Of a stretch of 64,000 nt of DNA, positions 1 through 24,604 are shown piece by piece. The number at the start of each line of letters is the position of its first letter. The first letter of the stretch is position 1. The DNA comes from Bidens hawaiensis. Taxonomy: Eukaryota > Streptophyta > Magnoliopsida > Asterales > Asteraceae. Position numbers and translations under genes: made by a program. Below the pieces are notes generated by a model. It was not told the origin of the DNA. It saw nothing but the letters and a program-made list of their open reading frames with translations, and searched no databases. The stretch lies in the NCBI GenBank assembly GCA_021521415.1, contig JAIQDT010000233.1, positions 1,488,001 to 1,552,000 on the forward strand, written 5' to 3'.

Positions 1-1366
1 ATTTTGTGTGTTACTTTTATATGTTATAAAAAGCTTATCTTAAAGTTTCCAGAATTTTTCATGATGTTTAGCTATTTTTCACCATTTTTGGCCAAAACCG
101 AGCATTAAATTCACCAAATATTCATCCTTTATCCAAAAATTACCAAAAATTCACAGATCTCATATTTTCATGTGTAGATCATCTCTGTGAAATTTCGTGA
201 CCCAACTCTAGGTCTATCACAATCTGTCTAAAATAACTAAATCACACGAAAACCGAACTATCTTGTGTTTTCTAGCGTTAGATCGCAAAGATCTTGGTTT
301 CTAGCCTTTGCTAGCCACTAGATACAACACTTACAAGCACAACAACACCACACCAAGCAAGTTATACCCACAATCAAGCCATTTCTTTCATGGTTTCGAT
401 TAAAACATCAAAACAAAGATTTTGATCGTAAAAATTCGTTTTTGACTCTTTTAACTACTTTCTTGGACCAAGATCCTTTGTATAACTTGTATACATCACT
501 TGATCCTCCAAGAATCGGTTTCATCTCGGGTTTTCACCCATTTTCATTTGAAACCTCATTTCCTTGTAAATGAATCAAGAAAAGAAGAATAACACGATTA
601 TAACTCGGTCTATACCTCGTTTTCTTGCTTAAAAACTTGGATCTTTGGATGGATGATGAAGAGGTTGAGAGGATTTTGGGAGAAAGATTGTGGAAAAAAG
701 AAAAAATGAAGTGTGTGTGGTGAGGCTATGGACCGATCGGTCCATAGTAAGGTGGGGAGGGGGGCCCACAACTCCAACCATGGCCACACATTCAGATTAC
801 GCAATCTGGATAATGTTGTGGATAATCTGGTTCAGTTCGTTTTTCGGTTAAACGTTTAATTCCGCTCAAAACGAGGCCAAAACGGTCGTTTTTCGGCTTA
901 AAATTAAAATTTATATAAAACTGATTTAAAAACTTTAAAAACTTTAACCATGACGTTTATTGACTTAACACATCGTATTGTCGGTAATTGTGCATCTTTT
1001 TCGGCTTGATCGATCGTCTCTTGCTTGGTTTGATGTTAAAGGTTTCGTTTATCGTACCGACGTACTAATAAATCGAAATCCTTTTTCTGTGCTATAATTC
1101 ACTTATCCCGAAGCTTTATTACTTCGTAAACATCACTAAACATTATATATTTCGTCTATAATGTAATTCCCGATTCGTTCGGGTTTCAATAACCGTTCAT
1201 CGATTAATCGTAATTCCGATACGACTAGTTGTACATTTGAGTATAATTCGTACTGTGAATCTTATATACTCGTATAAACACATTATAATTCATATATTCA
1301 GTATTGAATAACACGTAAATAGTATATTCCGGCTAGGGTATACCTGAATTTGCCGGAATCGTTACA
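1..1366 (-). mobile_element. Partial LTR of an A-type Ty3/gypsy chromovirus (A3), cut by the window edge
   Basis: The stretch matches the inner and right parts of the A1 LTRs (from about 17022 and 26363) and of the A2 LTR. It ends with the same terminus, CGGAATCGTTACA, at 1366, so it reads on the minus strand with U3 at the right. No internal region follows it: position 1367 is already the 747-bp array. It is therefore either the 5' LTR end of an element lying to the left or a solo LTR. The short ORF at 610-804 falls inside the LTR and is not a gene. Confidence 0.85.
14..23 (-). promoter_or_regulatory. Candidate TATA box in the A3 LTR
   Basis: The minus strand reads CATATAAAAG, at the same place in this LTR as in both A1 LTRs. 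Transcription would run leftward out of the window. Consensus match only. Confidence 0.35.
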
Positions 1367-2113
1367 CATGGTATACTGGAATAAACTGGTCACTTTCAAA
1401 AGTTTCATTAGGCTTCTTCTTTTTGTTGTTCTTGATTTTTCTAAATACTTCTTTTCTTGGTGGCCTTACAGCATTGTAAGTAACCTTTATTCTTGTAGAC
1501 CCTTCACATATGTCAAATGACACACGTTGTATTCTCATCTTCTAACTTAGTCTCTTCATTTTTGGTGTTGTAGGAGGCAACAATGGAAGTTGATCAATTG
1601 AGTCAGGCTTCTTTATCTTTCTTTTTCTTTTTGCATCTTGGATTTCTTCATTTGAAACTTGATCACTGGAGTCAATTAAGTCATCCTTGTCCAAATCATC
1701 TTCATTGAAGTCATCTTCAGATTCATGCACACCAAGTGACTTTTCATCTTTCTTATCGTCTTTCAACACAAATTCTCGTTGTTCATCAACATTAAGTTTT
1801 TCATAATGTTCAATGAAATCTTCCTTGTCTTTGAACACATCTCTGAATTAGTTGAGATATGCCTCCCTTTTATCCCTATCAACTTTTAGAGAATAGCTAC
1901 TTTTAAAGGGTGGAGGAACAACTCTGTATTTGTCTTCTTTTTTAATTTTTTCAAAATACCACATATGTGTCCAGTGGAAACTAGATTCTTCATAAACTCA
2001 ACTTCAACTTGCGATGTGGTATTTCTCACCTCTTCTTCAATAACCATCTTCTTTAGTCCTTCAATCTCAGTCGCATACCTCTCCAATGTCAAATAATTCT
2101 TGACTTGAAAAGA

Positions 2114-5100
2114 CATGGTATACTGGAATAAACTGGTCACTTTCAAAAGTTTCATTATGCTTCTTCTTGTTGTTGTTCTTGATTTTTCTAAATACTTCTC
2201 TTCTTGGTGGCCTTACAGCATTGTAAGTAACCTTTATTCTTGTAGACCCTTCACATATGTCAAATGACACACGTTCTCTTCTCATCTTCTAACTTAGTCT
2301 CTTCATTTTTGGTGTAATAGGAGGCAATAATGGAAGTTGATCAATTGAGTCAGGCTTCTTTATCTTTCTATTTCTTTTTGCATCTTGGATTTCTTCATTT
2401 GAAACTTGATCACTGGAGTCAATTAAATCATCCTTGTCCAAATCATCTTCATTGAAGTCATCTTCAGAAACATGCACACCAATTGACTTTTCATCTTTCT
2501 TATCGTCTTTCAACACAAATTCTCGTTGTTCATAAACATTAAGTTTTTCATAATGTTCAATGAAATCTTCCTTGCCTTTGAACACATCTCTGAATTAGTT
2601 GAGATATGCCTCCCTTTTATCCTTATCAACTATTAGAGAATAGCTACTGTTAAAAGGTGGAGGAACAACTATGTATTTGTCTTCTTCTTAATTTTTTTCA
2701 AAATATCACATATGTGTCCAGTGGAAAATAGATTCTTCATAAACTCAACTTCAACTTGCGATGTGGTATTTCTCACCTCTTCTTCAATAACCATCTTCTT
2801 TAGTCCTTCAATCTCAGTCGCATACCTCTCCAATGTCAAATAATTCATGACTTGAGAAGACATGGTATACTGGAATAAACTGGTCACTTTCAAAAGTTTC
2901 ATTAGGCTTCTTCTTGTTGTTGTTTTACATTTTTCTAAATGCTTCTCTTCTTGGTGGCCTTCGAGCATTGTAAGTAACCTTTATTCTTGTAGACCCTTCA
3001 CATATGTCAAATGACACACGTTCTCTTCTCATCTTCTAACTTAGTCTCTTCATTTTTGGTGTAATAGGAGGCAATAATGGAAGTTGATCAATTGAGTCAG
3101 GCTTCTTTATCTTTCTATTTCTTTTTGCATCTTGGATTTCTTCATTTGAAACTTGATCACTGGAGCCAATTAAATCATCCTTGTCCAAATCATCGTCATT
3201 GAAGTCATCTTCAGAAACATGCACACCAATTGACTTTTCTTCTTTCTTATCGTCTTTCAACACAAATTCTCGTTGTTCATCAACATTAACTTTTTCATAA
3301 TGTTCAATGAAATCTTCCTTGTCTTTGAACACATCTCTGAATTAGTTTATATATGCCTCCCTTTTATCCCTATCAACTTTTAGAGAATAGCTACTTTTAA
3401 AGGGTGGAGGAACAACTCTGTATTTGTCTTCTTTTTTAATTTTTTCAAAATACCACATATGTGTCCAGTGGAAACTAGATTCTTCATAAACTCAACTTCA
3501 ACTTGCGATGTGGTATTTCTCACCTCTTCTTCAATAACCATCTTCTTTAGTCCTTCAATCTCAGTCGCATACCTCTCCAATGTCAAATAATTCTTGACTT
3601 GAGAAGACATGGTATACTGGAATAAACTGGTCACTTTCAAAAGTTTCATTATGCTTCTTCTTGTTGTTGTTCTTGATTTTTCTAAATACTTCTCTTCTTG
3701 GTGGCCTTACAGCATTGTAAGTAACCTTTATTCTTGTAGACCCTTCACATATGTCAAATGACACACGTTCTCTTCTCATCTTCTAACTTAGTCTCTTCAT
3801 TTTTGGTGTAATAGGAGGCAATAATGGAAGTTGATCAATTGAGTCAGGCTTCTTTATCTTTCTATTTCTTTTTGCATCTTGGATTTCTTCATTTGAAACT
3901 TGATCACTGGAGTCAATTAAATCATCCTTGTCCAAATCATCTTCATTGAAGTCATCTTCAGAAACATGCACACCAATTGACTTTTCATCTTTCTTATCGT
4001 CTTTCAACACAAATTCTCGTTGTTCATAAACATTAAGTTTTTCATAATGTTCAATGAAATCTTCCTTGCCTTTGAACACATCTCTGAATTAGTTGAGATA
4101 TGCCTCCCTTTTATCCTTATCAACTTTTAGAGAATAGCTACTGTTAAAAGGTGGAGGAACAACTATGTATTTGTCTTCTTCTTAATTTTTTTCAAAATAT
4201 CACATATGTGTCCAGTGGAAAATAGATTCTTCATAAACTCAACTTCAACTTGCGATGTGGTATTTCTCACCTCTTCTTCAATAACCATCTTCTTTAGTCC
4301 TTCAATCTCAGTCGCATACCTCTCCAATGTCAAATAATTCATGACTTGAGAAGACATGGTATACTGGAATAAACTGGTCACTTTCAAAAGTTTCATTAGG
4401 CTTCTTCTTGTTGTTGTTTTACATTTTTATAAATGCTTCTCTTCTTGGTGGCCTTCGAGCATTGTAAGTAACCTTTATTCTTGTAGACCCTTCACATATG
4501 TCAAATGACACACGTTCTCTTCTCATCTTCTAACTTAGTCTCTTCATTTTTGGTGTAATAGGAGGCAATAATGGAAGTTGATCAATTGAGTCAGGCTTCT
4601 TTATCTTTCTATTTCTTTTTGCATCTTGGATTTCTTCATTTGAAACTTGATCACTGGAGCCAATTAAATCATCCTTGTCCAAATCATCGTCATTGAAGTC
4701 ATCTTCAGAAACATGCACACCAATTGACTTTTCTTCTTTCTTATCGTCTTTCAACACAAATTCTCGTTGTTCATCAACATTAAGTTTTTCATAATGTTCA
4801 ATGAAATCTTCCTTGTCTTTGAACACATCTCTGAATTAGTTTATATATGCCTCCCTTTTATCCCTATCAACTTTTAGAGAATAGCTACTTTTAAAGGGTG
4901 GAGGAACAACTCTGTATTTGTCTTCTTTTTTAATTTTTTCAAAATACCACATATGTGTCCAGTGGAAACTAGATTCTTCATAAACTCAACTTCAACTTGC
5001 GATGTGGTATTTCTCACCTCTTCTTCAATAACCATCTTCTTTAGTCCTTCAATCTCAGTCGCATACCTCTCCAATGTCAAATAATTCTTGACTTGAGAAG

Positions 5101-6595
5101 ACATGGTATACTGGAATAAACTGGTCACTTTCAAAAGTTTCATTATGCTTCTTCTTGTTGTTGTTCTTGATTTTTCTAAATACTTCTCTTCTTGGTGGCC
5201 TTACAGCATTGTAAGTAACCTTTATTCTTGTAGACCCTTCACATATGTCAAATGACACACGTTCTCTTCTCATCTTCTAACTTAGTCTCTTCATTTTTGG
5301 TGTAATAGGAGGCAATAATGGAAGTTGATCAATTGAGTCAGGCTTCTTTATCTTTCTATTTCTTTTTGCATCTTGGATTTCTTCATTTGAAACTTGATCA
5401 CTGGAGTCAATTAAATCATCCTTGTCCAAATCATCTTCATTGAAGTCATCTTCAGAAACATGCACACCAATTGACTTTTCATCTTTCTTATCGTCTTTCA
5501 ACACAAATTCTCGTTGTTCATAAACATTAAGTTTTTCATAATGTTCAATGAAATCTTCCTTGCCTTTGAACACATCTCTGAATTAGTTGAGATATGCCTC
5601 CCTTTTATCCTTATCAACTTTTAGAGAATAGCTACTGTTAAAAGGTGGAGGAACAACTATGTATTTGTCTTCTTCTTAATTTTTTTCAAAATATCACATA
5701 TGTGTCCAGTGGAAAATAGATTCTTCATAAACTCAACTTCAACTTGCGATGTGGTATTTCTCACCTCTTCTTCAATAACCATCTTCTTTAGTCCTTCAAT
5801 CTCAGTCGCATACCTCTCCAATGTCAAATAATTCATGACTTGAGAAGACATGGTATACTGGAATAAACTGGTCACTTTCAAAAGTTTCATTAGGCTTCTT
5901 CTTGTTGTTGTTTTACATTTTTCTAAATGCTTCTCTTCTTGGTGGCCTTCGAGCATTGTAAGTAACCTTTATTCTTGTAGACCCTTCACATATGTCAAAT
6001 GACACACGTTCTCTTCTCATCTTCTAACTTAGTCTCTTCATTTTTGGTGTAATAGGAGGCAATAATGGAAGTTGATCAATTGAGTCAGGCTTCTTTATCT
6101 TTCTATTTCTTTTTGCATCTTGGATTTCTTCATTTGAAACTTGATCACTGGAGCCAATTAAATCATCCTTGTCCAAATCATCGTCATTGAAGTCATCTTC
6201 AGAAACATGCACACCAATTGACTTTTCTTCTTTCTTATCGTCTTTCAACACAAATTCTCGTTGTTCATCAACATTAAGTTTTTCATAATGTTCAATGAAA
6301 TCTTCCTTGTCTTTGAACACATCTCTGAATTAGTTTATATATGCCTCCCTTTTATCCTTATCAACTTTTAGAGAATAGCTACTGTTAAAAGGTGGAGGAA
6401 CAACTATGTATTTGTCTTCTTCTTTAATTTTTTCAAAATACCACATATGTGTCCAGTGGATACTAGATTCTTCATAAACTCAACTTCAACTTGCGATGTG
6501 GTATTTCTCACCTCTTCTTCAATAACCATCTTCTTTAGTCCTTCAATCTCAGTCGCATACCTCTCCAATGTAAAATAATTCTTGACTTGAGAAGA
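2114..6595 (-). repeat. Left sub-block of the array: alternating dimers
   Basis: Six units alternate between two types, giving a 1494-bp repeat. Type 1 (98-residue pieces at 2289, 3783 and 5277) reads MFKGKEDF, NVYEQ and IDSSDQ; the three predicted peptides are identical. Type 2 (3036, 4530 and 6024) reads MFKDKEDF, NVDEQ and IGSSDQ with FNDDDL. The alternation shows that the unit of recent amplification was a dimer. Confidence 0.85.
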
Positions 6596-9500
6596 CATGG
6601 TATACTGGAATAAACTTGTCACGTTCAAAAGTTTTATTAGGCTTCTTCTTGTTGTTGTTCTTGATTTTTCTAAATACCTCTCTTCTTAGTAGCGTTACAG
6701 CATTGTAAGTAACCTTTATTCTTGTAGACCCTTCACATATGTCAAATGACACACGTTCTCTTCTCATCTTCTAACTTAGTCTCTTCATTTTTGGTGTAGT
6801 AGGAGGCAATAATGGAAGTTGACCAATTGAGTCAGGCTTCTTTATCTTTCTATATCTTTTTGCATCTTGGATTTCTTCATTTGAAACTTGATCACTGGAG
6901 TCAATTAAATCATCCTTGTCCAAATCATCTTCATTGAAGTCATCTTCAGAAACATGCACACCAATTGACTTTTCATCTTTCTTATCGTCTTTCAACACAA
7001 ATTCTCGTTGTTCATAAACATTAAGTTTTTCATAATGTTCAATGAAATCTTCCTTGCCTTTGAACACATCTCTGAATTAGTTGAGATATGCCTCCCTTTT
7101 ATCCTTATCAACTTTTAGAGAATAGCTACTGTTAAAAGGTGGAGGAACAACTATGTATTTGTCTTCTTCTTAATTTTTTTCAAAATATCACATATGTGTC
7201 CAGTGGAAACTAGATTCTTCATAAACTCAACTTCAACTTGCGATGTGGTATTTCTCACCTCTTCTTCAATAACAATCTTCTTTAGTCCTTCAATCTCAGT
7301 CGCATACCTCTCCAATGTCAAATAATTCATGACTTGAGAAGACATGGTATACTGGAATAAACTGGTCACTTTCAAAAGTTTCATTAGGCTTCTTCTTGTT
7401 GTTGTTTTTGATTTTTCTAAATGCTTCTCTTCTTGGTGGCCTTAGAGCATTGTACGTAACCTTTATTCTTGTAGACCCTTCACATATGTCAAATGACACA
7501 CGTTCTCTTCTCATCTTTTAACTTAGTCTCTTCTTTTTTGGTGTAGTAGGAGGCAATAATGGAAGTTGATCAATTGAGTCAGGCTTCTTTATCTTTCTAT
7601 TTCTTTTTGCATCTTGGATTTCTTCATTTGAAACTTGATCACTGGAGCCAATTAAATCATCCTTGTCCAAATCATCGTCATTGAAGTCATCTTCAGAAAC
7701 ATGCACACCAATTGACTTTTCATCTTTCTTATTGTCTTTCAACACATATTCTCGTTGTTCATCAACATTAAGTTTTTCATAATGTTCAATGAAATCTTCC
7801 TTGTCTTTGAACACATCTCTGAATTAGTTTATATATGCCTCCCTTTTATCCTTATCAACTTTTAGAGAATAGCTACTGTTAAAAGGTGGAGGAACAACTA
7901 TGTATTTGTCTTCTTCTTTAATTTTTTCAAAATACCACATATGTGTCCAGTGGATACTAGATTCTTCATAAACTCAACTTCAACTTGCGATGTGGTATTT
8001 CTCACCTCTTCTTCAATAACCATCTTCTTTAGTCCTTCAATCTCAGTCGCATACCTCTCCAATGTAAAATAATTCTTGACTTGAGAAGACATGGTATACT
8101 GGAATAAACTTGTCACGTTCAAAAGTTTTATTAGGCTTCTTCTTGTTGTTGTTCTTGATTTTTCTAAATACCTCTCTTCTTAGTAGCGTTACAGCATTGT
8201 AAGTAACCTTTATTCTTGTAGACCCTTCACATATGTCAAATGACACACGTTCTCTTCTCATCTTCTAACTTAGTCTCTTCATTTTTGGTGTAGTAGGAGG
8301 CAATAATGGAAGTTGACCAATTGAGTCAGGCTTCTTTATCTTTCTATATCTTTTTGCATCTTGGATTTCTTCATTTGAAACTTGATCACTGGAGTCAATT
8401 AAATCATCCTTGTCCAAATCATCTTCATTGAAGTCATCTTCAGAAACATGCACACCAATTGACTTTTCATCTTTCTTATCGTCTTTCAACACAAATTCTC
8501 GTTGTTCATAAACATTAAGTTTTTCATAATGTTCAATGAAATCTTCCTTGCCTTTGAACACATCTCTGAATTAGTTGAGATATGCCTCCCTTTTATCCTT
8601 ATCAACTTTTAGAGAATAGCTACTGTTAAAAGGTGGAGGAACAACTATGTATTTGTCTTCTTCTTAATTTTTTTCAAAATATCACATATGTGTCCAGTGG
8701 AAACTAGATTCTTCATAAACTCAACTTCAACTTGCGATGTGGTATTTCTCACCTCTTCTTCAATAACAATCTTCTTTAGTCCTTCAATCTCAGTCGCATA
8801 CCTCTCCAATGTCAAATAATTCATGACTTGAGAAGACATGGTATACTGGAATAAACTGGTCACTTTCAAAAGTTTCATTAGGCTTCTTCTTGTTGTTGTT
8901 TTACATTTTTCTAAATGCTTCTCTTCTTGGTGGCCTTCGAGCATTGTAAGTAACCTTTATTCTTGTAGACCCTTCACATATGTCAAATGACACACGTTCT
9001 CTTCTCATCTTCTAACTTAGTCTCTTCATTTTTGGTGTAATAGGAGGCAATAATGGAAGTTGATCAATTGAGTCAGGCTTCTTTATCTTTCTATTTCTTT
9101 TTGCATCTTGGATTTCTTCATTTGAAACTTGATCACTGGAGCCAATTAAATCATCCTTGTCCAAATCATCGTCATTGAAGTCATCTTCAGAAACATGCAC
9201 ACCAATTGACTTTTCTTCTTTCTTATCGTCTTTCAACACAAGTTCTCGTTGTTCATCAACATTAAGTTTTTCATAATGTTCAATGAAATCTTCCTTGTCT
9301 TTGAACACATCTCTGAATTAGTTTATATATGCCTCCCTTTTATCCTTATCAACTTTTAGAGAATAGCTACTGTTAAAAGGTGGAGGAACAACTATGTATT
9401 TGTCTTCTTCTTTAATTTTTTCAAAATACCACATATGTGTCCAGTGGATACTAGATTCTTCATAAACTCAACTTCAACTTGCGATGTGGTATTTCTCACC

Positions 9501-11077
9501 TCTTCTTCAATAACCATCTTCTTTAGTCCTTCAATCTCAGTCGCATACCTCTCCAATGTAAAATAATTCTTGACTTGAGAAGACATGGTATACTGGAATA
9601 AACTTGTCACGTTCAAAAGTTTTATTAGGCTTCTTCTTGTTGTTGTTCTTGATTTTTCTAAATACCTCTCTTCTTAGTAGCGTTACAGCATTGTAAGTAA
9701 CCTTTATTCTTGTAGACCCTTCACATATGTCAAATGACACACGTTCTCTTCTCATCTTCTAACTTAGTCTCTTCATTTTTGGTGTAGTAGGAGGCAATAA
9801 TGGAAGTTGACCAATTGAGTCAGGCTTCTTTATCTTTCTATATCTTTTTGCATCTTGGATTTCTTCATTTGAAACTTGATCACTGGAGTCAATTAAATCA
9901 TCCTTGTCCAAATCATCTTCATTGAAGTCATCTTCAGAAACATGCACACCAATTGACTTTTCATCTTTCTTATCGTCTTTCAACACAAATTCTCGTTGTT
10001 CATAAACATTAAGTTTTTCATAATGTTCAATGAAATCTTCCTTGCCTTTGAACACATCTCTGAATTAGTTGAGATATGCCTCCCTTTTATCCTTATCAAC
10101 TTTTAGAGAATAGCTACTGTTAAAAGGTGGAGGAACAACTATGTATTTGTCTTCTTCTTAATTTTTTTCAAAATATCACATATGTGTCCAGTGGAAACTA
10201 GATTCTTCATAAACTCAACTTCAACTTGCGATGTGGTATTTCTCACCTCTTCTTCAATAACAATCTTCTTTAGTCCTTCAATCTCAGTCGCATACCTCTC
10301 CAATGTCAAATAATTCATGACTTGAGAAGACATGGTATACTGGAATAAACTGGTCACTTTCAAAAGTTTCATTAGGCTTCTTCTTGTTGTTGTTTTTGAT
10401 TTTTCTAAATGCTTCTCTTCTTGGTGGCCTTAGAGCATTGTACGTAACCTTTATTCTTGTAGACCCTTCACATATGTCAAATGACACACGTTCTCTTCTC
10501 ATCTTTTAACTTAGTCTCTTCTTTTTTGGTGTAGTAGGAGGCAATAATGGAAGTTGATCAATTGAGTCAGGCTTCTTTATCTTTCTATTTCTTTTTGCAT
10601 CTTGGATTTCTTCATTTGAAACTTGATCACTGGAGCCAATTAAATCATCCTTGTCCAAATCATCGTCATTGAAGTCATCTTCAGAAACATGCACACCAAT
10701 TGACTTTTCATCTTTCTTATTGTCTTTCAACACATATTCTCGTTGTTCATCAACATTAAGTTTTTCATAATGTTCAATGAAATCTTCCTTGTCTTTGAAC
10801 ACATCTCTGAATTAGTTTATATATGCCTCCCTTTTATCCTTATCAACTTTTAGAGAATAGCTACTGTTGAAAGGTGGAGGAACAACTATGTATTTGTCTT
10901 CTTATTTAATTTTTTCAAAATACCACATATGTGTCCAGTGGAAACTAGATTCTTCATAAACTCAACTTCAAATTGCGATGTGGTATTTCTCACCTCTTCT
11001 TCAATAACCATCTTCTTTAGTCCTTCAATCTCAGTCGCATACCTCTCCAATGTAAAATAATTCTTGACTTGAGAAGA
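6596..11077 (-). repeat. Right sub-block of the array: dimers and 2988-bp tetramers
   Basis: Units at 6771, 8265 and 9759 share KRYRKIKK and DSIGQLPLL, absent from the left block. Units at 7518 and 10506 share REYVLKDNKK and TPKKKRLS and lie exactly 2988 bp (four units) apart. A longer open frame (starting MLEGHQEEKH) recurs at 2669, 5657 and 8645, again 2988 bp apart and spanning both blocks. The array therefore has at least three nested periods: 747, 1494 and 2988 bp. Confidence 0.8.
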
Positions 11078-11824
11078 CATGGTATACTGGAATAAACTTG
11101 TCACGTTCAAAATTTTTATTAGGCTTCTTCTTGTTGTTGTTCTTGATTTTTCTAAATACTTCTCTTCTTAGTGGCCTTACAGCATTGTAAGTAACCTTTA
11201 TTCTTGTAGACCCTTCACATATGTCAAATGACACACGTTCTCTTCTCATCTTCTAACTTAGTCTCTTCATTTTTGGTGTAGTAGGAGGCAATAATGGAAG
11301 TTGACCAATTGAGTCAGGCTTCTTTATCTTTCTATATCTTTTTGTATCTTGGATTTCTTCATTTGAAACATGATCACTGGAGCCAATTAAATCAACCTTG
11401 TCCAAATCATCGTCATTGAAGTCATCTTCAGAAACATGCACACCAATTGACTTTTCATCTTTCTTATCGTCTTTCAACACAAATTCTCGTTGTTCATCAA
11501 CATTAAGTTTTTCATAATGTTCAATGAAATCTTCCTTGTCTTTGAATACATCTCTGAATTAGTTTATATATGCCTCCCTTTTATCCTTATCAACTTTTAG
11601 AGAATAGCTACTGTTAAAAGGTGGAGGAACAACTATGTATTTGTCTTCTTCTTTAATTTTTTCAAAATACCACATATGTGTCTAGTGGAAACTAGATTCT
11701 TCATAAACTCAACTTCATCTTGCGATGTGGTATTTCTCACCTCTTCTTCAATAACCATCTTCTTTAGTCCTTCAATCTCAGTCGCATACCTCTCCAATGT
11801 CAAATAATTCTTGATGTGAGAAGA

Positions 11825-12139
11825 CTTGGTATACTGGAATAAACTGGTCACGTTCAAAAGTTTCATTAGGCTTCTTCTTGTTGTTGTTCTTGATTTTTCT
11901 CAATACTTCACTTCTTGGTGGCCTTACTGCATTGTAAGTAACCTTTATTCTTATAGACCCTTCACATATGTCAAATGACACACGTTCTCTTCTCAACTTA
12001 GTCTCTTCATTTTTGGTGTAGTAGGAGGCAATAATGGAAGTTGATCATTTGAGTCAGGCTTTTTATCTTTCTATTTCTTTTTGCATCTTGGATTTCTTCA
12101 TTTGAAACTTGATCACTGGACTCAGTTAAATCATCCTTG
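11825..12139 (-). repeat. Partial, diverged terminal unit of the 747-bp array
   Basis: The last copy carries a small deletion next to the CTTAGTCTCTTC motif (about 11994) and many substitutions. It stops mid-unit after CATCCTTG at 12139, where sequence unrelated to the unit begins. It marks the right border of the array. Confidence 0.8.
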
Positions 12140-12880
12140 AGTGTTTGCTTAGCGAATCAGCTACAGTTGATAATGAATCAACTTGTAGCGAATTAGGTAG
12201 TTACAACGGTTGTAACAAACTTCTAACAACACATGACATGTGGCAAAATTTGTTATAAAACAATTACCGAGGTAAGACACGTGTCACACAAACTGTTGAC
12301 ACAAATTAGAATAGTTAGAGAATTAGTTCATGAATTAGATGATAATCTTAACGAATTAGCTAATGTTATTAGCGAATTTGCCAAAATGTTAACGAATTAC
12401 ACTGAAAGATTAACGAATTAGTATGAATCTTCAAATCTTCAAACCTTCAACCTCATAATTTCCAGATTTCTGGAAATCATATAAACACAAACCCAGAAAC
12501 CAAATCTGTAATACTTAACCAATTCTTAACCAAATTACTCAATCAAACTACCAAAACACTCGTAACCACAACGCGAATCCAATACAACTCGTTCCGTAAC
12601 CAATAACCAATTAACTCGTATCCGATCTAACCAAAGACATTCCCCTGTTCTCGGCTTAAACCAGATCCAATCCAATAACCACAACAATCCACACCAAATC
12701 ACAATTCCAGTTCAGTACAATATCCCAATACCTTAACACACTTAAATCCAATCCAAACAATCCAATTAACAATCAATTCGATCCAAAATCAAACTGAACA
12801 GAGACTTAACACAAACATTATCAATTATCAATCTAATAACATCAATTAACATCCAAATCAAGCGTAAACGAGCACCGAAA
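12140..12880 (-). other. Non-coding, leader-like DNA between PBS and array
   Basis: No convincing gene. Read on the minus strand it follows a PBS and LTR (12881-13405) and precedes the gag-derived array, so it sits where the 5' leader of a copia element would be. The left 290 bp hold repeated TAACGAATT or TAGCGAATT words, and the rest is A- and C-rich. The plus-strand 62-residue ORF at 12233-12421 is built largely from those words and is not taken as a gene. Confidence 0.45.
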
Positions 12881-12892
12881 GCTCTGATGCCA
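12881..12892 (-). other. Primer binding site next to the 511-bp copia LTR
   Basis: The minus strand reads TGGCATCAGAGC, one base from the usual TGGTATCAGAGC complementary to initiator tRNA-Met. It is separated from the LTR by 2 bases. Its side shows that the internal region it primed lies to the left, towards the array. Confidence 0.6.
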
Positions 12893-12894
12893 CT

Positions 12895-13405
12895 TGTTTG
12901 AACTTTGTTAATCTAACACAAATCTCAGATCTGATATATAATTAACCTAATGAGGATCTAGTTCATAATTACTCTTGATTGTATGTTGTGTATATGATAT
13001 ATTAGTTGTATGTATGTGTATAATATTAATACTTAGATTGAAGCTTGAGAGTGAATCTGGGCAGGGGTTCAGTAATATAACTCAAATGCTTAAATTAAAC
13101 TATGGACTAAAGCCACTATAAATAGAAGATGGATCTAGTTCGTTACACATTCTGTAACGAACTAGTATCTACTTCGTTACATACACTTAAATATCAATAA
13201 CTTAACGAATCACCCCTGATTCGTTAAACACCCTTAACGAATCAAGAGGGATAATAACATAGATCTAGTTCGCTAAACATCCTTAGCGAACTAGACTATA
13301 CTATAACGAACTACATAAATATGTTTAATAATTAATACATTAATTAAACGACAAATACATTAATGATAAATACAAAGACTCGAGACGCAAAACCGTGTAT
13401 TAACA
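12895..13405 (-). mobile_element. Copia LTR (C1), 511 bp, shared between PBS and PPT
   Basis: On the minus strand it begins TGTTAATACACGG and ends GTTCAAACA, giving TGTT/AACA termini. A purine tract (AGAAGAAG) lies just upstream and a PBS just downstream. An LTR with a PPT on one side and a PBS on the other is expected when two elements share one LTR in tandem. CTATTTATAG near 13115-13125 could be its TATA box. No second copy of this LTR is visible in the window, so the ends are inferred. Confidence 0.6.
13135..13295. repeat. Three perfect hairpins in the copia LTR U3
   Basis: Hairpin 1: arms 13135-13147 (CTAGTTCGTTACA) and 13153-13165, 5-base loop. Hairpin 2: arms 13202-13212 (TTAACGAATCA) and 13217-13227, loop CCCC. 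Hairpin 3: arms 13264-13276 (TCTAGTTCGCTAA) and 13283-13295, 6-base loop. All arms pair perfectly and share the core TTCGYTA/TARCGAA. They lie upstream of the candidate TATA box on the minus strand, in U3. Confidence 0.85.
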
Positions 13406-13413
13406 CTTCTTCT
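13406..13413 (-). other. Candidate polypurine tract of C1
   Basis: The minus strand reads AGAAGAAG directly against the LTR start TGTTAA. Short, but in the correct place for plus-strand priming of C1. Confidence 0.45.
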
Positions 13414-13423
13414 ATTATCACAT

Positions 13424-13945
13424 TCAGTTTTCAGACTGAAAATCATCAATCTCTTTCTCCAGTTGTTCCATCTCTTCATCATGCTCTACCCTCTTGGAGC
13501 TTGCTTGATCAGCTTCGCGTTCTTTGAGTACTAGCTCCTCAGTAGCATCATCATCATCAAGTGTCACATCAGTTTGTACTTCTATTGCAGTTAATACATC
13601 TGTCAGCACATCAGTTTGAATGTCAGTGGCAACATCAATAGTAGCCATAATTTCATTAATGTTCATCTTTTCAACTCCATCTTCTGTCTCTTTTTCTCCT
13701 CTTACCTCATCATCATCTCTATTCACAACATTCAGCACCTCATTATTAACATCATAATTCTGCTCATCTCCCTCTGACTCATCAGCCTCGTACTCATCCT
13801 CCTGTATTGATCTTGGACCACTGTCCTCATCATCACTTTCATCATATGCATTAAATAAACAAGTCAAACCATCAACATCAGTTGACTTTACAGTTGCATC
13901 TCCAATCACATCAACATCAACATTAACAACAACATCAGTTGACAT
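13424..13945 (-). CDS. Acidic C-terminal part of the C1 downstream ORF
   Basis: A 173-residue open frame (MSTDVVVNVDVDVIG... to ...IDDFQSEN) with no recognised domain. It is rich in Asp and Glu (ESDDEDSG, DEYEADESEGDE), has TDV repeats in the middle and a charged, possibly coiled-coil end (EEMEQLEKEIDDF). Its stop lies 18 bases before the LTR, so it is the 3'-terminal coding segment of C1. The Met at 13945 may be internal, since similar low-complexity coding DNA continues upstream. It probably belonged to the same protein as the segments at 13946-15268 and 27873-28166. Confidence 0.5.
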   Translation of the reverse strand: MSTDVVVNVDVDVIGDATVKSTDVDGLTCLFNAYDESDDEDSGPRSIQEDEYEADESEGDEQNYDVNNEVLNVVNRDDDEVRGEKETEDGVEKMNINEIMATIDVATDIQTDVLTDVLTAIEVQTDVTLDDDDATEELVLKEREADQASSKRVEHDEEMEQLEKEIDDFQSEN

Positions 13946-14394
13946 AATGATATTCTCCCCCTGTTTTGGGGCAGCTGAGGTCTTCTCAACCTCCTGCTCC
14001 GAGGCTTGAATTCGGGATTGTGCTTAGGCCAACTGTGCTTGTTGCTTCACATTCTCTTTTCTCAATTCTTCATTCTCATTTCTCAACTTTACAGCCTTAA
14101 TAAATAAATCAAAATTTCTTTGTTAAAGATTGGAAATATGGGAAGGTGTAGTGGGTGGTGAAATGTGAAATGGTCTGGTAGAGGATTTGAGGTTTGGGTC
14201 TGGGGTAAAGGGATTGGGTATTGGGAGGAACTAGGTCTTCGATTATGTTTTCACTTGTGGCAGGTAAAGGGTTAAGGGTTGTAAATGTATATGTTCTGGA
14301 TTGAACAATTCTGGATGATCTTTGAAAGATTTGTTCTAAGGTTTGGTCTTATGTGGGAATGGTTTCTGGAATGTATGGTTCATTGTCATGGGTT

Positions 14395-14485
14395 TGAGTT
14401 GTGGTTTGAGGTGGGGTTTGGGTTTTGGTTTTGGTTTGAGGTGGGGTTTGGTGTGTGGTTTGAGGTGGGGTTTGGGGTGTTTGCT
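14395..14485 (+). repeat. G-rich low-complexity block
   Basis: Runs such as GAGGTGGGGTTTGGG alternate with TTTGG on the plus strand. The minus strand encodes a degenerate Pro-Lys-Pro-His repeat of the C1 downstream ORF. Many GG/GGGG runs with short T loops could form a two-tetrad G-quadruplex. Confidence 0.5.
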
Positions 14486-15263
14486 CAGTTTGTGATGGTT
14501 GATAGGGTGGTGTTTGTGTTGGAGTACCAAGTGGTGTGGATGGTGGTGTTGGTATACTTTGAAACTACCCCTGAGGGTGTACATTGTCATTAAAATTTTC
14601 ATCACCTCCTTTTGCATTGCCAACATCATCATCAGCACCATCATTATCATCCTCATCATTATCACCATCTGAATTATCATTCCCATCATTATCACCCATC
14701 ATCTGAGGCATCATCTCTTTCATCCTCAACATGTTCTTCTTCAGCCAAAATCTCATGTAAATGAGGAATTTGAATATTATCAACAATCAACCATGGAAAG
14801 TCTTCATACACTTCATTAGGATTGAATCCACTTGTACTAGCCAGATTCTCAATTCTTTTGAATGTATCAGGGTTCTACAAGACATGTGTTGTTCCAACTG
14901 TAGGTAATCCCTCCAACTTCTGGTTAAATATAATCTGTAGGAACCTAGGATAAGCCAAAAACTTCTTCTTGTTTGTCTTCTTCATATTGTGAACCATTCC
15001 TTCAATATCATTTCGGAGAAATTGAATAGTTGAGTAAACAGCACAGCAACAATAGCATTGGCAAGATCCCTACTCATAAGGGTCCATGACCCCTTTATTG
15101 GAGCAAACCCATGAATTATGTGATGGATTAGAAATCTGTAAATATTAGAGAACATTCCCTTCTGAAATTGCCCATCATGTATATTCCCCTGATAGCCCAT
15201 AGCTTTAACAAAAATCTTCAGTAGTTGTTTTGTTTTAAGGTGAATTGGGTTGGGGTTGGCATC

Positions 15264-15268
15264 ATTCA
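15264..15268. other. Target site duplication of A1, left copy (ATTCA)
   Basis: The five bases ATTCA directly precede the TG of the left LTR and are repeated directly after the right LTR at 27873-27877. Confidence 0.9.
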
Positions 15269-15641
15269 TGTAACACCCCGTAACCGCAGCGGAAACGTAC
15301 ACGGGATGCAACAGACACATCTGATATCAACAACATTGCTTATAAAGAAAATACCACTACATTAATTTATAACATATTACATTGTTGCGAGTTTCGTTAC
15401 TGTCTAGGTGTTACACACATATTTTACCGATAAGACATTAATATATTCATTACAAAATATAGAGCAGCAAGCTTCCAACAGGTAGCACAGATAGTTAAGC
15501 ACATATCAATCATTCCAACTTGGGCATACCTAGAAAACATGTAAAGAAAACGGGTCAACTACGAATAGTTGGTGAATTTCACTAATTTAAATAAACACTG
15601 ACAGATCATTTTAATAACCATTTATTAGTAATGAAATTATG

Positions 15642-15912
15642 CTGGGAACTATGTTACCCCAGAACAATAATAACCTCTGGGAACTATGTTACCCCAGAAC
15701 AATAATAACCTCTGGGAACTATGTTACCCCAGAACAATAATAACCCCTGGGAACTATGTTACCCCAGAACAATAATAACCCCTGGGAACTATGTTAACCC
15801 AGAACAATAATAACCTCTGGGAACTATGTTACCCCAGAACAATAATAACCCCTGGGAACTATGTTACCCCAGAACAATAATAACCCCTGGGAACTATGTT
15901 ACCCCAGAACAA
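15642..15912. repeat. 35-bp minisatellite in the A1 3' LTR (8 copies)
   Basis: Copies start at 15642, 15677, 15712, 15747, 15782, 15817, 15852 and 15887, each beginning CTGGGAACTATGTTACCCC; the last is incomplete. CTGGG...CCCCAG makes each unit an imperfect palindrome. Two related single motifs (CTGGGGACATTGTTAACCC and CCGGGGACAATGTTAACCC) lie at about 16194 and 16231. Confidence 0.95.
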
Positions 15913-17035
15913 TTCCACACGATAAACAATTTATATATTCTATGCATCAAACCATGTATATATAAATATACAAGTGTTTCCATACGATCGGTATGTACTT
16001 AAATATTTTAACAAAGACATGTTTTCCGCCCCGGGAAAATATTTAAAACAGTTCAGTAAAAGGGGCTCGTGAAAACTCACCTTTTGGTGAGTCGGTGGGT
16101 AATACAATGAACAGCTACGTGCCTGGATCTGTAATATAATATCTAGTCGTTACTATATAATTCCCATAAATTAAATCCGTGTTAATCGGCACATCTGGGG
16201 ACATTGTTAACCCAGTACTGTACTCGATCCGGGGACAATGTTAACCCCGTGACACTCCTAAGGACTCAGATTGTGCCATTACTTAGAGTCGGACGGTCAA
16301 AATTATCATTTTTATGTTTTCCTTGATTTGCGTGCCTAGCACGGTCATCCGTTTTTAGTTTCAAAAATGAGTTTATTCACACTTAACCCAAAAATGGTGT
16401 TTGACTGTTATTTTAGTTAAAGTGATGAAATTAGAGCTCGGTTTGGACACCCCGTTTGGCCGCGGGGCCCGTTTCCGTCATTTAGGTGCCGGAAACAGTA
16501 AAATCGGGTAAAATTACCCAAATCATCCGAATTATTTTCGGATGATTTATTTTTACTTAATTTACTTAGTTTTATGGAAATGGTCCATTTTTAAGGTTTT
16601 CATATACCAGTCAGCTAGCTTATGCGAGTTTTGCCGGTTTACACGTTTTAAGCTTTAAAAATTTGTTTTTATGTTCTTTTTAGCACAAATAATTACCCGT
16701 TTAGTCTCGGGTCTGGAAATTTTGCACAAAACTTATTTTGACAGTAAGAAATTTTATAAAAATTTTCCAGATTTATTTTCTTATATTTACATTTATTTAT
16801 CTATTTTTAACCTTAATAAAACACTAAATATGTCAAAAATACCAAAAGACTTTAGAAAAATCCCAAATTTTTCTGGGATGATCCTTGCCATTCTCATGAC
16901 TCCCTGGAATTTTTCCAGAACCCAAAACTCATATTTCAAGCCATTTTCACAAAAACCGAGCTAGAAAGCCCTAAAACTCGTTTTACCGAAAAGCCCCTTT
17001 AGACTTTTCCAACTGAGCTCAAATTTTGTGTGTGA

Positions 17036-17045
17036 CTTTTATATG
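17036..17045 (-). promoter_or_regulatory. Candidate TATA box, A1 3' LTR
   Basis: The minus strand reads CATATAAAAG. In a 3' LTR it would drive transcription into flanking C1 DNA. Consensus match only. Confidence 0.35.
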
Positions 17046-18534
17046 TTATAAAAAGCTTATCCTTAATTTTTCAGAATATTTCATCAAGTTTAGCTATTTT
17101 TCACCATTTTTGGCCAAAACCGAGCATTAAATTCACCAAATATTCATCTTTTATCCAAAAATTACCAAAATTTCACAGATCTCATATTTTCATTTGTAGA
17201 TCATCTCTGTGAAATTTTGTGACCCGACTCTAAGTACACTACAATCTGTCCAAACTCACTAAATCACACGAAAACCGAACTATCTTGTGTTTTCTAGCGT
17301 TAGATCGCAAAGATCCGGGTTTCTAGCCTTTGCCAGCCACTAGATACAACACTTACAAGCACAATAACACTATACCAAGCAAGTTACACCAACAATCAAA
17401 CCATTTCTTTCATAGTGTCGGTTTTGATATAAAAACAAAGGTTTTAACCGTAAAAATCCGTTCTCGATTCTTTTTACTCATTTCTTGGACCAAGATCCCT
17501 TGTATAACTTGTATACATCTCTTGATCATGCAAGAGTTGGTTTCATCTCGGGTTTTCACCCGTCTTTCACATGGAAACTCATTTTTACAAGATTTCAACC
17601 GTAAAATTTCATTCTAAACTCTTTTAACTAATTACTTGGATCAAGATCCTTTGTATAACTTGTATACATCTCTTGATCACACGAGAATCGGTTTCATCTC
17701 GGGTTTTCACCCATTTTTCACATGAAACCTCCTTTTCTCAATATTGTAGAATTAGAAACAAGATTAAAGCCTTAAAACATGTGTTATACCTTCAAGTTTT
17801 TGGTAGAAATCAAAGAAACTTGGATGGATGTTGAAAGAGTTGAGAGATTTTGAGAGAATTGGTGTGAAAAAAAGAAAAATGTAATGTGTGAGTGTGTGTG
17901 TAGAGGGCCGGCCATATGGTGGTGTGGGGGGGGCCCACATCTCAAACCATGGCCACACATTTGGATTACACAATCCGGATAATGTTGTGGATAGTCTGGT
18001 TCAGTTCGTTTCTCGTTTAAACTCGTAATTCGGCTTAAAACGAGCCTAAAATGGTCGTTTTTCGGGTTAAAATAAAATTTACATAAAACTGATTTAAAAA
18101 CTTTAAAAACTCAAACCATGACATTAAATGACTTAAAACATTGTATTGTCGGTAAATGTGCATCTTTTTCGGTTTGATCGATCGTCTCTTGCTTGGTTTG
18201 ATGTGAAAGGTTTCGTTTATCGTACCGACGTACTAATAAATCGAAATCCTTTTTCTGTGCTATAATTCACTTATCCCGAAGCATTAATACTTCGAAAACA
18301 TCACTAAACATTATATGCTTCGTCTATAATGTAATTCCCGATTCGTTCGGGTTTCAATAATCGTTCATTGGTTAATTGTAATTCCAATACGATTCACTAT
18401 ATAATCGAGTATGATTCGTACTATGAATCATATATACTTGTATACACGTACTATAACTCATATAATCAATACTAAATGACACGTAAATAGTATATACCGG
18501 CTAGGGTATACCTGGATTTGCCGGAATCGTTACA

Positions 18535-18547
18535 TTCTCCCCCCGTT
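18535..18547 (-). other. Polypurine tract of A1
   Basis: The minus strand reads AACGGGGGGAGAA directly against the 3' LTR, in the place and form expected for plus-strand primer formation. Confidence 0.85.
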
Positions 18548-18551
18548 ATAA

Positions 18552-18571
18552 AAATTTCGTCCTCGAAATTT
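18552..18571. repeat. Hairpin upstream of the A1 PPT
   Basis: Arms AAATTTCG (18552-18559) and CGAAATTT (18564-18571) with loop TCCT, at the very end of the pol frame. The B1 element has the same kind of hairpin before its PPT, so it looks like a conserved 3' module of this clade. Confidence 0.75.
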
Positions 18572-19320
18572 TACACGTCAACTACTTCCTTTTGAGGAAA
18601 TAGGTGGGGGTATTTCTTCCGAAATTCATCCTTTCGTTCCCAAGTAAATTCTGGGCCTCGTTGCGAATTCCATCTAATTTTGACCAACGAGATCTTATTG
18701 TGTCTAAGTTGCTTGATCTTACCGTCCACTATTTCAATGGGCTCCTCTACGAAGTTGAGCTTATCATTTATTTGAACACCCTCTAAGGGTAACACCGATG
18801 TCTCATCCGCCAGACATCTTTTCAAATTTGACACATGAAACACGTTATGAACTGCACTTAGTTCCTCAGGCAGTTCTAATCGGTAAGCTACCGGACCGAT
18901 TTTTGCAGTGATGTCGAATGGTCCAATGTATCTGGGGGCTAACTTCCCCGCCTTGCCAAATCTGATCACTCCTTTCCATGGGGATACTTTCAAATATACT
19001 TTTTCACCCTTCTCAAATGACAACGGTTTTCGACGGGTATCGGCATAACTCTTCTGCCGGTCCCGCGCGGCTTTTAGGTTGTTCTTAATTTCAAGAATCT
19101 TGCTGGTCGTCTCCTGGACCAGATCCGATCTAATGACCTGCGGGTCACCCACTTCAGACCAGCAAAGTGGTGATCGGCACTTCCGCCCATACAATGCTTC
19201 ATAAGGTGCTGCCTTTATACTGCTGTGATAACTGTTATTATAGGAAAACTCAACGAGTGGGAGATGTTGATCCCAATTTCCCTTAAAGTCCAGTACACAA
19301 GCACGAAGCAAATCCTCCAA
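18571..19320 (-). pseudogene. A1 pol, C-terminal integrase and chromodomain-like tail
   Basis: This 249-residue piece continues the upstream pol frame after a TGA at 19345-19347. It starts near the integrase catalytic Glu region ([18 protein letters not shown]), runs through the C-terminal integrase domain ([39 protein letters not shown]) and ends in a chromodomain-like module ([27 protein letters not shown]). In chromoviruses this tail is thought to steer integration towards certain chromatin. The frame ends at 18571 within the hairpin next to the PPT. Sequence is intact here; only the upstream stop separates it from the rest of pol. Confidence 0.9.
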
Positions 19321-19344
19321 AGTTTGAATGGTCCTCTCAGACTG

Positions 19345-22326
19345 TCAATCGGTCTGAGGGTGGTAAGCCGTGCTTAGGTCAATACGTGTTCCCAATGCTT
19401 CTTGAACAGCTTGCCAAAGTTTGGAGGTGAAATGGCTATCCCTATCGGAGATGATCGAGATGGGGATGCCATGACGAGACACTATTTCATTTATATAAAT
19501 CTGCGCAAGTCTCTCAGTGTTAAAAGTATTCCTAATCGGAATAAAATGTGCCGATTTGGTTAATCGATCCACGATTACCCAAATCGCATCATGACCTCGG
19601 GGTGACTTGGGGAGATGAGTCACAAAATCCATTGTGATCTGCTCCCACTTCCATTCGGGAATTTCCGGCTGTTGTAGCATTCCCGAGGGTTTCTGGTGCT
19701 CCGCCTTAACTCTCGCACACGTCGTACACTTGCCGACGTATGTGGCTATATTCTTTTTCATACCTGGCCACCAGTAAAATTCTTTCACATCCTTGTACAT
19801 TTTATCTGATCCCGGATGTATGGAATATTTCGATTTATGCGCTTCATCCATGATCAAATCACGAAGGTCATGGAGGGTCGGGATCCAAATCCGATTTTTG
19901 AAATAGAGAATTTCGTCCACACGCTGTTCGAAATTCTTCTCATTCCCGTAAAGTCCTTCTTTATCCAATTGGTCCTCTTTCAACGCCTCGCGTTGAGCGA
20001 CTCGAATCAAATCCGAAAGGCTCGATTGGACTATCATTCCCAACGCTCGCACGCGTAGTGGCTTAACTCGATCTTTCCTACTCAAGGCATCGGCTACAAC
20101 GTCAGCCTTGCCGGGGTGATATCGGATGTCACAATCATAGTCACTTAGTAACTCGACCCACCTTCGTTGTCTCATATTCAGTTCTTTCTGATCGAATATG
20201 TGTTGCAAACTTTTATGATCAGTGAAGATGGTGCACTTTGTACCGTAGAGATAGTGTCTCCAGATTTTAAGTGCAAAGATGACTGCTCCCAGTTCCAAGT
20301 CATGAGTAGTGTAGTTTTTCTCATGAACTTTTAACTGTCGAGACGCATAGGCTATGACCTTTTTATTTTGCATCAACACGCATCCTAACCCTTTACGGGA
20401 TGCGTCACAATATACAACAAATCCATCGTCTCCGTCGGGGAGACTTAAGATTGGCGCTTGGCACAATCTTTGCTTTAGCGTTTGAATCGCCGATTCCTGC
20501 TCTTCACCCCAATCATACCTTCGATCCTTTTGGGTCAGCAGGGTTAAAGGTTGGGCAATGCTGGAAAAATTCTCAATAAATCGACGATAGTACCCAGCTA
20601 AGCCTAAGAATTGGCGGATTTCCTTTGGAGATTTAGGTGCTTGCCAATTCTTAATTGCTTCAATCTTACTTGGATCGACGTGTATTCCTTGATGATTTAT
20701 AATGTGACCAAGGAATTGCACTTCTTGTAACCAGAAGTTACATTTGGAGAATTTTGCATACAACTTCTCCTGATCCAAAAGTTCCAAAATTAACCTCAAA
20801 TGTCGTTCGTGTTCCTCTTTACTCTTCGAGTATATCAAAATATCGTCAATAAACACGATGACGAATTTGTCAAGATAGGGTTTACAGACTCGGTTCATGA
20901 GATCCATGAACACCGCTGGCGCATTTGTTAGTCCAAAAGGCATAACTAAAAATTCGTAGTGGCCGTAGCGAGTCCGAAACGCGGTTTTTGGGATATCCTC
21001 CTCCTGAATTTTAACTTGGTGGTATCCCGATCTAAGATCAATCTTTGAGAAATAGCTCGCACCTTGTAGTTGGTCGAACAAATCATCGATTCGGGGAAGA
21101 GGATACCTATTTTTGATGGTTAATTTGTTCAATTCCCTGTAGTCAATGCACATTCGAAGGCTTCCGTCCTTCTTTTTCACAAATAGTACATGTGCACCCC
21201 ACGGGGAATAGCTGGGACGAATAAATCCCTTATCCAACAATTCCTGCAACTGGTTGGATAATTCTTGCATCTCGGACGGTGCAAGTCTGTAAGGGGCCTT
21301 AGCAACAGGGCCAGCTTGTGGTAACAGATCGATTCTGAATTCGACCTGTCGGGTTGGCGGTAATCCAGGAAGTTCCTCTGGAAAAACTTGTGGAAATTCG
21401 CGTACCACGGGAATATCGTCCACCCGTTTTTCCTCAGAATCAGCGGCCGTCAGGCTCGCTAGATACGCCACACATCCCTGACGTATATATTTCAACACCT
21501 TGAGGTGGGATATAAATGGTATCATGGTGCCGGATTTTTCTCCCTGCACTAATACCTCCTCGTCATCCGACACCCGGATCTTGACGGTTTTCTTTTCACA
21601 GTTTATTTCTACCCTGTTACGTGCCAACCAATCCATTCCCACTATTACGTCAAAACTACCCAATTCTACCGGTAACAAGTCAATTAGGAAGGATTGTTCG
21701 CTCAGAATAAAAGGGCAATTCCGAACTATCCGATTAACTATCATGGTTTTACCGTTAGCGACTTCTACGGTGTAAGGTTCTATGGTTTCACCAATAGGAA
21801 GGTTTGCTATCGAAAGGAATCTAACGGAGACAAAACTTCTATCGGCGCCTGTATCAAATAATACAGAAGCGTAATGATCAGAGACGAGGAAGGTACCTGT
21901 CACTACGCTGGGGTCCTGGCACGCCTCGTTCGCTCCCATCACGAATGCTCGGCCTCGCGCCGGATTGGACGACGATGGCTGACCCGCGAGTTGTCTCCCG
22001 TTTCCTCCCTGGTTCAGTTTCGGGCAGTTCCTTTTGAAGTGATCCGTGCTGCCGCATTCGTAGCAAGCACGGCTAGTGGTTACCATCTGATTTCCTTGCG
22101 GGTTCTGCTGTCGGGCTGGTTGAGTTCTAAATGGTTGCGCACGAATAGGTTGCGGTTGACGGTTCAGGTTGTTCAGATTTGTCTTACAATTTGGTGCGTA
22201 GTGTCCAATCCTGCCACACCGATGGCACACCACCTCTTTGCACACGCCACTATGGTGGTAACCACATTTCCCGCACTTAGGAAACGTTCCCTTCTGCGGT
22301 TCTTGCCTTCCGCCTGAACTAGTCAT
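19345..22326 (-). pseudogene. A1 gag-pol middle: zinc knuckles, protease, RT, RNase H, integrase
   Basis: An open frame of 993 residues. Near residues 34-47 and 88-101 lie two CCHC knuckles ([28 protein letters not shown]). The aspartic protease active site DTGA is near 158. RT follows ([11 protein letters not shown]; catalytic FIDD in [12 protein letters not shown]), then RNase H ([25 protein letters not shown]), the integrase zinc finger ([13 protein letters not shown]) and the core ([28 protein letters not shown]). It is broken from the capsid part by TAG (22336-22338) and TGA (22354-22356), and from the integrase end by TGA (19345-19347), all in the same frame. In A2 the first two codons are Gln and Arg. 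Confidence 0.93.
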
Positions 22327-22353
22327 GGCATAACTCTAGGCAGCGGGCCTAGC

Positions 22354-23277
22354 TCATTTGCTTTGCTGCTTTTCCTGGATTCTATGATCATGCGTACCCC
22401 GTTTTCCCCCAGCGGATTCTCCTGTCATCTTTAGTGATCCGCTCCGCAAGAAATCATACGTGACAATGCCAGCTTGTGTCACTGCACTTTCATACGTCCG
22501 GTGTCCCCCCGCGTTGACTATACTCCTCACTACTGGAGTAAGTCCCCAAATATAACGTTCCACCCTCTTCGTCTCCGGGGTGACCAACCACGGTACTAAT
22601 CGTGACAGTTCATTAAACCGATTGGTATAACCCAAGTGGTCCGCCCCCTTCATCTCCAGATTCCACAACTCATTTTCCAATTTCTGCAATTCATTCTTTG
22701 GGCAGAAATGTTCCAACACAAGAGCCTTAAGCTCCGTCCAGGTCATGTGGTTTGTCGCCGCCTGACCTCGAGTCTGTACTATGGTGTTCCACCATGTCAA
22801 GGCATGGTCGGTGAATGTACAGGTGGCGTACTTAACGACACAATCCTCGGGACAGTTGCTAATATTCACCACTGATTCTATTTTCTCTATCCATTTAACT
22901 AACCCATTCGGTCCTTCAGACCCGCTAAACTCTAATGGCTTGCACAACATAAAATCCTTGATCGAACATCCCCTGGATGCACGAATTGGTTCAGTACGGT
23001 TTGTCTCTACCGTAGGTATAGGGCCATTGCTGTCAGTAACGACCACCCTAGGCGGTGCGTCATTACTCGGAATAGTGTTATCATTCCTTGGAGGATTAGC
23101 ATTTTGTTCCCCGTCATTATTTATGGGCGTTTGATTGCTCGGAGGGGTTGGATTGGTCGAGTTATTAATACTGGCGGCGATGCGCGATACTATATCCGGT
23201 ATCGCCTCCTCCAACTGTTGAGCAATCAAACGGCTCACATCTACTTCCGATATTTTCGTTGATCGTTTCGGTGCCAT
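22354..23277 (-). pseudogene. A1 gag capsid region
   Basis: Starts at the ATG at 23277 (MAPKRSTKISEVDVSRL), chosen because A2 has the same ATG and context; the frame upstream of it shows no conservation. A Ser/Pro/Asn-rich N-terminus is followed by a retrotransposon gag domain (FSGSEGPNGLVKWIEKIE, TFTDHALTWWNT, LEHFCPKNELQKLENELW, YTNRFNELSRLVPW). It forms the particle shell and packages RNA with the zinc knuckles downstream. It ends at an in-frame TGA where A2 reads Arg. The ATG lies one base after a candidate splice acceptor (AG at 23279-23280). Confidence 0.9.
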
Positions 23278-23278
23278 T

Positions 23279-24590: not shown

Positions 24591-24604
24591 TGGCTCTGAT
24601 ACCA
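24591..24604 (-). other. Primer binding site of A1 (initiator tRNA-Met type)
   Basis: The minus strand reads TGGTATCAGAGCCA, complementary to the 3' end of plant initiator tRNA-Met, five bases inside the 5' LTR. It fixes the orientation of the element. Confidence 0.92.

Follow-up and report, generated by a model that had tools for sequence, protein, structure and literature searches.

A long satellite-type array in Bidens hawaiensis that probably grew in place from an internal coding segment of a copia element

A tandem array of retrotransposon coding sequence in Bidens hawaiensis probably arose by one microhomology-mediated duplication in a resident copia element, followed by expansion in place by unequal exchange. 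The stretch analysed in this study (the window, 64,000 nucleotides) corresponds to C233:1488001-1552000 of a 3.47-Gb assembly; C233:1330001-1488000 was added, and the unit was then mapped. The array extends from approximately C233:1356653 to 1500139, a span of 143 kb, and the block in the window is its right end. The features of the window referred to below are the following:

1 to 1366, minus strand: right LTR (last 1,366 bp) of an element nested in the array, C233:1477047-1489366
1367 to 1371, no strand: target duplication CATGG, the other copy of which is at C233:1477042-1477046
1367 to 12139, minus strand (coding strand): part of the array in the window, 14 full 747-bp units and 312 bp, a dimeric higher-order repeat
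2055 to 2089, minus strand: unit junction (AGGT joint), the first of 14 copies, repeated every 747 bp up to 11766-11800
12140 to 13424, no strand: right flank, at which the array stops in mid-unit
30216 to 35955, minus strand: downstream half of the window copia with pol domains, homologous to C233:1350913-1356652 directly left of the array
35953 to 36700, minus strand: homologous single-copy segment of the diverged window copia, identical to the unit in 531 of 770 alignment columns
37200 to 37299, minus strand: upstream of the homologous segment in the window copia, a zf-CCHC zinc knuckle (PF00098, E 9.9e-5, passing the curated cut-off)

In the window block, the unit phases start at positions 1370 to 11828 with a spacing of exactly 747 bp, and the fifteenth unit is a 312-bp partial ending at 12139. 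A preliminary description of this DNA had counted 14 exact 747-bp units plus a partial one; the exact length and the remainder hold, whereas the sequences differ, with 70 of 747 columns variable and unit pairs differing at 0 to 37 sites. Identical units throughout are ruled out by these variable columns together with a dimeric alternation: adjacent units share 95.7-97.2% identity, while units two apart share 96-100% (at least 98% in 10 of 12 comparisons), and unit 4 is identical to unit 6, as are units 8, 10, and 12 to one another. The block is a dimeric higher-order repeat with a period of 1,494 bp. The 35-bp word spanning the unit junction is found 14 times without mismatch, a number reached in none of 100 shuffles. 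Position 1367, previously taken as the boundary of the array, is the edge of the nested LTR element with its CATGG duplication; because this insertion ends at position 1366, what looks like a left array edge within the window is simply where that element stops, and the array resumes beyond it.

Mapping of the unit on C233 gave 155 matches, of which 148 are full-length and none is inverted; unit sequence adds up to 112,971 bp and ends at C233:1500139. The first full unit starts at C233:1356671, with unit sequence beginning approximately 18 bp before it, and the full units are 743-750 bp long except for a single one of 755 bp. As in a satellite, the arrangement is head to tail in one orientation apart from four insertions, and the units are homogenised (0.957 identity between units vs 0.896 between units and dispersed relatives); the mean pairwise identity is 0.953 (range 0.919-1.000, 10,878 pairs), and 20 pairs are identical. 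The long satellite-type array of the preliminary description is thus borne out by 148 full units over 143 kb, far more than one or two in the assembled locus, and the units form an array instead of occurring only within full-length copia genes. Array length and unit order are given as assembled, and the exact number of units may be off. One array locus was seen with 28 of 3,220 genome candidates scored.

The unit aligns with positions 35960-36700 of the window at approximately 68% identity (E 5.8e-66), and the window copia segment shows a mean identity of 67% to the 148 units when gap columns are excluded. The source belongs to Ty1/copia, since rve precedes RVT_2 in the window copia as well as to the left of the array, and the copia gag domain Retrotran_gag_2 (E 1.9e-11) is found in L036, a piece of DNA that lies ahead of the segment in one dispersed relative. 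A second knuckle-like match in frame 35612-36202, below the curated cut-off, lies downstream of the segment and before the pol domains. Because the copia gag domain and the zinc knuckle are located upstream of the segment, the unit is not the capsid core of gag; as judged from the order of domains, its source is the polyprotein spacer between the nucleocapsid knuckle and pol, behind the first zinc knuckle. The earlier assignment to a contiguous segment of copia gag therefore keeps its one internal copia coding segment, but not "gag" if that word is taken to mean the capsid core. When two reading frames of the unit were used as queries, protein searches gave no match. The same search with the window copia segment gave three, of which P0001 (75% identity) and P0002 (63% identity) are clear relatives; in P0003 (263 aa), a short stretch near the end matches the segment, and this entry is possibly a chimeric contig.

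In a genome search with the unit, which scored 28 of the 3,220 candidates, 27 contigs besides C233 were listed, each with a single long match (88-91% identity). For 26 of these contigs, a short second match abuts the long one in single-copy order. Ten of the 27 were compared, each with approximately 350 bp per side, and all ten align across essentially the whole unit with identities of 0.892-0.922; i.e., the monomer is derived wholly from one parental retrotransposon family. The segment of the relatives typically starts with TCAAGGTATGTGACTGAG and ends with GACATTGGAGAGGTTGAAACTATGG, and the array junction GACATTGGAGAGGTATGCGACTGAG consists of their 3' end GACATTGGAGAGGTTGAAAC followed by their 5' end TCAAGGTATGTGACTGAG. 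The two ends share AGGT in six of the ten relatives and AAGGT in one; the remaining three do not have it in register, the word being changed in L025 and L031 and the register shifted in L032. By comparison with these ten dispersed single-copy relatives, the repeat joint reads as a 4-bp AGGT microhomology, although two ends may share a word of 4 bp by chance. The preliminary description had placed a microhomology of 'GAGAGGTA' words at the joint; a short-homology joint is retained, and the word reduces to AGGT, in register in 7 of the 10 relatives. In L026, the distance from AGGT to AGGT is 748 bp, and one frame has a single stop.

The duplication may also have been made during reverse transcription, by template switching in one copia copy that was inserted with at least two units and expanded on the chromosome afterwards. 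Template switching has been put forward as the origin of the tandem repeats in the 3'UTR of Ogre/Tat elements (PMC7004042, in the part available), and it would likewise put copia sequence beside the array. On the other hand, a second full unit occurs in none of the 27 other contigs listed, a weak objection with 28 of 3,220 candidates scored, and we consider this origin rather unlikely.

The sequences on both sides of the array differ in what they retain. On the left, C233:1350913-1356652 is 75.9% identical over 5.8 kb to positions 30216-35955 of the window and contains gag_pre-integrase, integrase, and RVT_2 in copia order. The DNA left of the array aligns with the downstream flank of all ten relatives (0.895-0.921 identity), a deletion of 33 bp at the left array edge (measured against L026) excepted. 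Since the same copia family continues at the left end, the array apparently grew inside its founder, and the copia half at this place, homologous and contiguous as it is, looks like that founder. On the right, the array stops in mid-unit, and at E 1e-3 the flank resembles nothing in the DNA that precedes the segment in two relatives (L035 and L036); the right end is therefore probably a rearrangement breakpoint. With no founder sequence at this end, only one of the two expected founder flanks is present, and the upstream half would most simply have been removed by a later deletion or rearrangement. The founder's own LTRs were not identified at the array locus.

Positions 12140-13424 were considered as the leader and LTR of the founder and rejected, as they do not match the upstream DNA of L035 and L036. 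That upstream DNA resembles LTR-like regions at approximately 38.6-39.7 and 45.3-47.0 kb of the window. The LTR-like sequences at 38613-39702 and 45302-46322 are in inverted orientation and 64.6% identical, the latter being followed by a primer-binding-site word; two dispersed relatives have DNA similar to them ahead of the segment. No second copy of the right flank was found in the window or left of the array. An exact primer-binding-site-like word (the reverse complement of TGGCATCAGAGC) is located at 12881-12892, with no recognisable partner LTR in the DNA examined.

The 148 units form one clade against the ten relatives and the window copia, with a FastTree local support of 0.83, which is moderate support from a tree with 10 of the 27 listed relatives. 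Units one to five apart are 0.963 identical, compared with an average of 0.953 and at most 0.954 in 500 shuffles of the unit order. Several blocks consist of multimers, which exceed the value of approximately 0.96 at k = 1: dimers in the window block (k = 2, 0.988), hexamers in 19 units from C233:1462117 (k = 6, 0.990), and pentamers in 41 units from C233:1390620 (k = 5, 0.972). These blocks were picked after a scan and then shuffle-tested, and 0 of 1,000 shuffles reached the observed value in each of the three. An 8-unit multimer in a fourth block was discarded, its value being reached by 550 of 1,000 shuffles. Similarity is lowest among the ten leftmost units (0.944). In satellite evolution generally, differing multimers are expected where unequal exchange or conversion acts locally and its register shifts; the pattern found here fits such a process, which we infer as the mechanism.

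Rolling-circle amplification on an extrachromosomal circle, with insertion of a long concatemer at this site, would explain the single orientation, the homogeneity, and the mid-unit right end. Random re-insertion, however, would not place the left end in the same copia family unless the concatemer was inserted into copia by homology, and the several different multimers point to repeated local exchange; this course is accordingly given a low probability.

Four interruptions were found in the array on C233, at 1364078-1371071, approximately 1390279-1390455, 1433171-1444144, and 1477047-1489366. Exact 5-bp target duplications (ATAAC, TGCAT, and CATGG) flank three of the insertions, and the three empty sites, rebuilt by joining the flanks minus one duplication copy, each restore an uninterrupted unit with 0 gap columns in 795. 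The LTR of the element at C233:1477047-1489366 resembles the LTRs of a Ty3/gypsy element at 15269-27872 of the window, and its part at positions 1 to 1366 has the same terminus as the LTRs that end at 18534, 27872, and 61915; the partner LTR is C233:1477047-1480166, and the empty site of this element is among those restored. Two insertions have LTR pairs that could be compared, one with 1 difference in 2,635 sites and the other with 32 in 3,119. At an assumed rate of 1.3e-8 substitutions per site per year, the older insertion is about 0.4 million years old (0.74 million at 7e-9), and the part of the array around it is at least as old. The 7.0-kb insertion at C233:1364078-1371071 (L010, L011) is flanked by a target duplication, and close to its left edge lies a reading frame that resembles reverse transcriptase; an LTR pair was looked for in the insertion and not found. 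The short stretch at C233:1390279-1390455 (L013), which starts with poly-T, ends with poly-A, and replaces approximately 50 bp of a unit, seems SINE-like by its appearance.

These insertions bear on the suspicion that a short true array was inflated or misjoined in the assembly. The assembly is what supports the array, and 20 of the 10,878 unit pairs are identical; nevertheless, the units differ (mean pairwise identity 0.953), the multimers vary from block to block, and the four insertions are at different places, three with exact target duplications, so that an artefact of this kind is very improbable.

The Ty3/gypsy-type element at 15269-27872 is on the minus strand with its pol domains in gypsy order and the target duplication ATTCA. 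Its 3.3-kb LTRs differ at 22 of 3,263 sites, and each contains a 35-bp tandem repeat of approximately 7.8 copies (15642-15913 and 24983-25252). A long acidic reading frame on the minus strand (13427-15268 and 27873-28130) is apparently split by this insertion. The tested pieces of this frame gave no Pfam match, and it is reminiscent of the additional reading frame that retroelements of composites (Asteraceae) commonly carry.

With the frame of the window copia as reference, AGGT is in different codon phases at the two ends of the segment, and the duplication therefore changes the frame. Each of the 14 window units has 7-12 stops per frame in the two frames showing homology. The stops and the frame change exclude coding selection on the array, which thus cannot explain its homogeneity, in agreement with the preliminary description. 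A repeat selected to encode a long repetitive gag-like protein, for which one could cite the coding source and a window period of 747, a multiple of three, has practically no chance of being correct in view of those stops, unit lengths of 743-755 across the array, and the shift of frame at the joint.

The favoured course, one duplication in a resident copia and growth in place, would have run as follows. A copia element resident at the site would have undergone one tandem duplication of a polyprotein-gene segment of approximately 748 bp, in a repair event that presumably used the 4-bp AGGT microhomology between the segment ends. The duplication would have changed the frame, leaving the array non-coding at once or shortly afterwards. 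Misaligned repeats may then have undergone unequal exchange or conversion, giving approximately 150 units in place and the local multimers of 2, 5, and 6, and later elements would have inserted into the array, as the target duplications show for three of them. The downstream half of the founder would have stayed at the left end, while the upstream half was presumably lost at the right. We lean slightly towards the fuller reading that this is a satellite at its birthplace, in which a single duplication of copia coding sequence with a 4-bp microhomology grew in place to approximately 150 units and formed several multimers independently, without an LTR, a UTR, or prior tandem repeats. If this reading is true, any single-copy stretch of retrotransposon coding sequence could seed a satellite.

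The beginnings of satellites are hard to see because founders are usually erased. At this one locus, the founding joint, its microhomology and frame change, the parent family, the presumed founder half, the multimers, and the later insertions can be read together. The locus indicates that a satellite can start from single-copy copia coding sequence, and it offers a test case for models of unequal exchange.

According to the available part of a review (PMC10794571), LTRs and UTRs are a frequent source of long satellite monomers in plants, and the part available of PMC9659126 lists a small number of satellites with gag reading frames, which it assigns to gypsy-type elements. In the portion of PMC7004042 at hand, 9 of the 11 Lathyrus satellites studied were traced to tandem arrays inside Ogre elements. 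As in these Ogre/Tat 3'UTR satellites of Lathyrus and pea, the present array lies within or beside its own LTR retrotransposon and then expanded. The Ogre/Tat satellites, however, grow from existing tandem repeats in a non-coding hypervariable region present in many copies (PMC7004042), downstream of a gypsy pol, whereas the listed dispersed relatives here carry the segment once, upstream of a copia pol (RVT_2).

Closer parallels are found in CRM1TR and CRM4TR of maize, which come from CRM centromeric retrotransposons (PMC3648361, in the part available). Like the present array, they are derived wholly from one parental retrotransposon, illegitimate recombination was proposed for their founding joint, and later retrotransposon insertions interrupt them and were used for dating; alternating similarity has also been reported within the CRM4TR monomers. 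Their source is LTR and UTR sequence of a gypsy-type element, whereas the source here lies within copia coding sequence, ahead of pol and between zinc-knuckle motifs. No short direct repeats were found at their joint according to the same portion of that report, in contrast to the 4-bp microhomology here, and unlike them the present array is still joined to copia pol at one end. In rye E3900 and the Cereba gag-related repeat (PMC9659126 and PMC3648361, as far as available), the monomers include a partial gag frame, as here. Those repeats are assigned to gypsy, and E3900 contains a gag fragment; the present monomer, by contrast, is a single unbroken stretch taken from a copia polyprotein gene. 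No satellite wholly of copia coding sequence is described in the parts available of the open-licence PMC literature searched, which is not proof of absence. Retrotransposon-derived satellites, some with pieces of gag, are thus already known, and one that is made of copia coding sequence and attached to its presumed founder is unusual among them.
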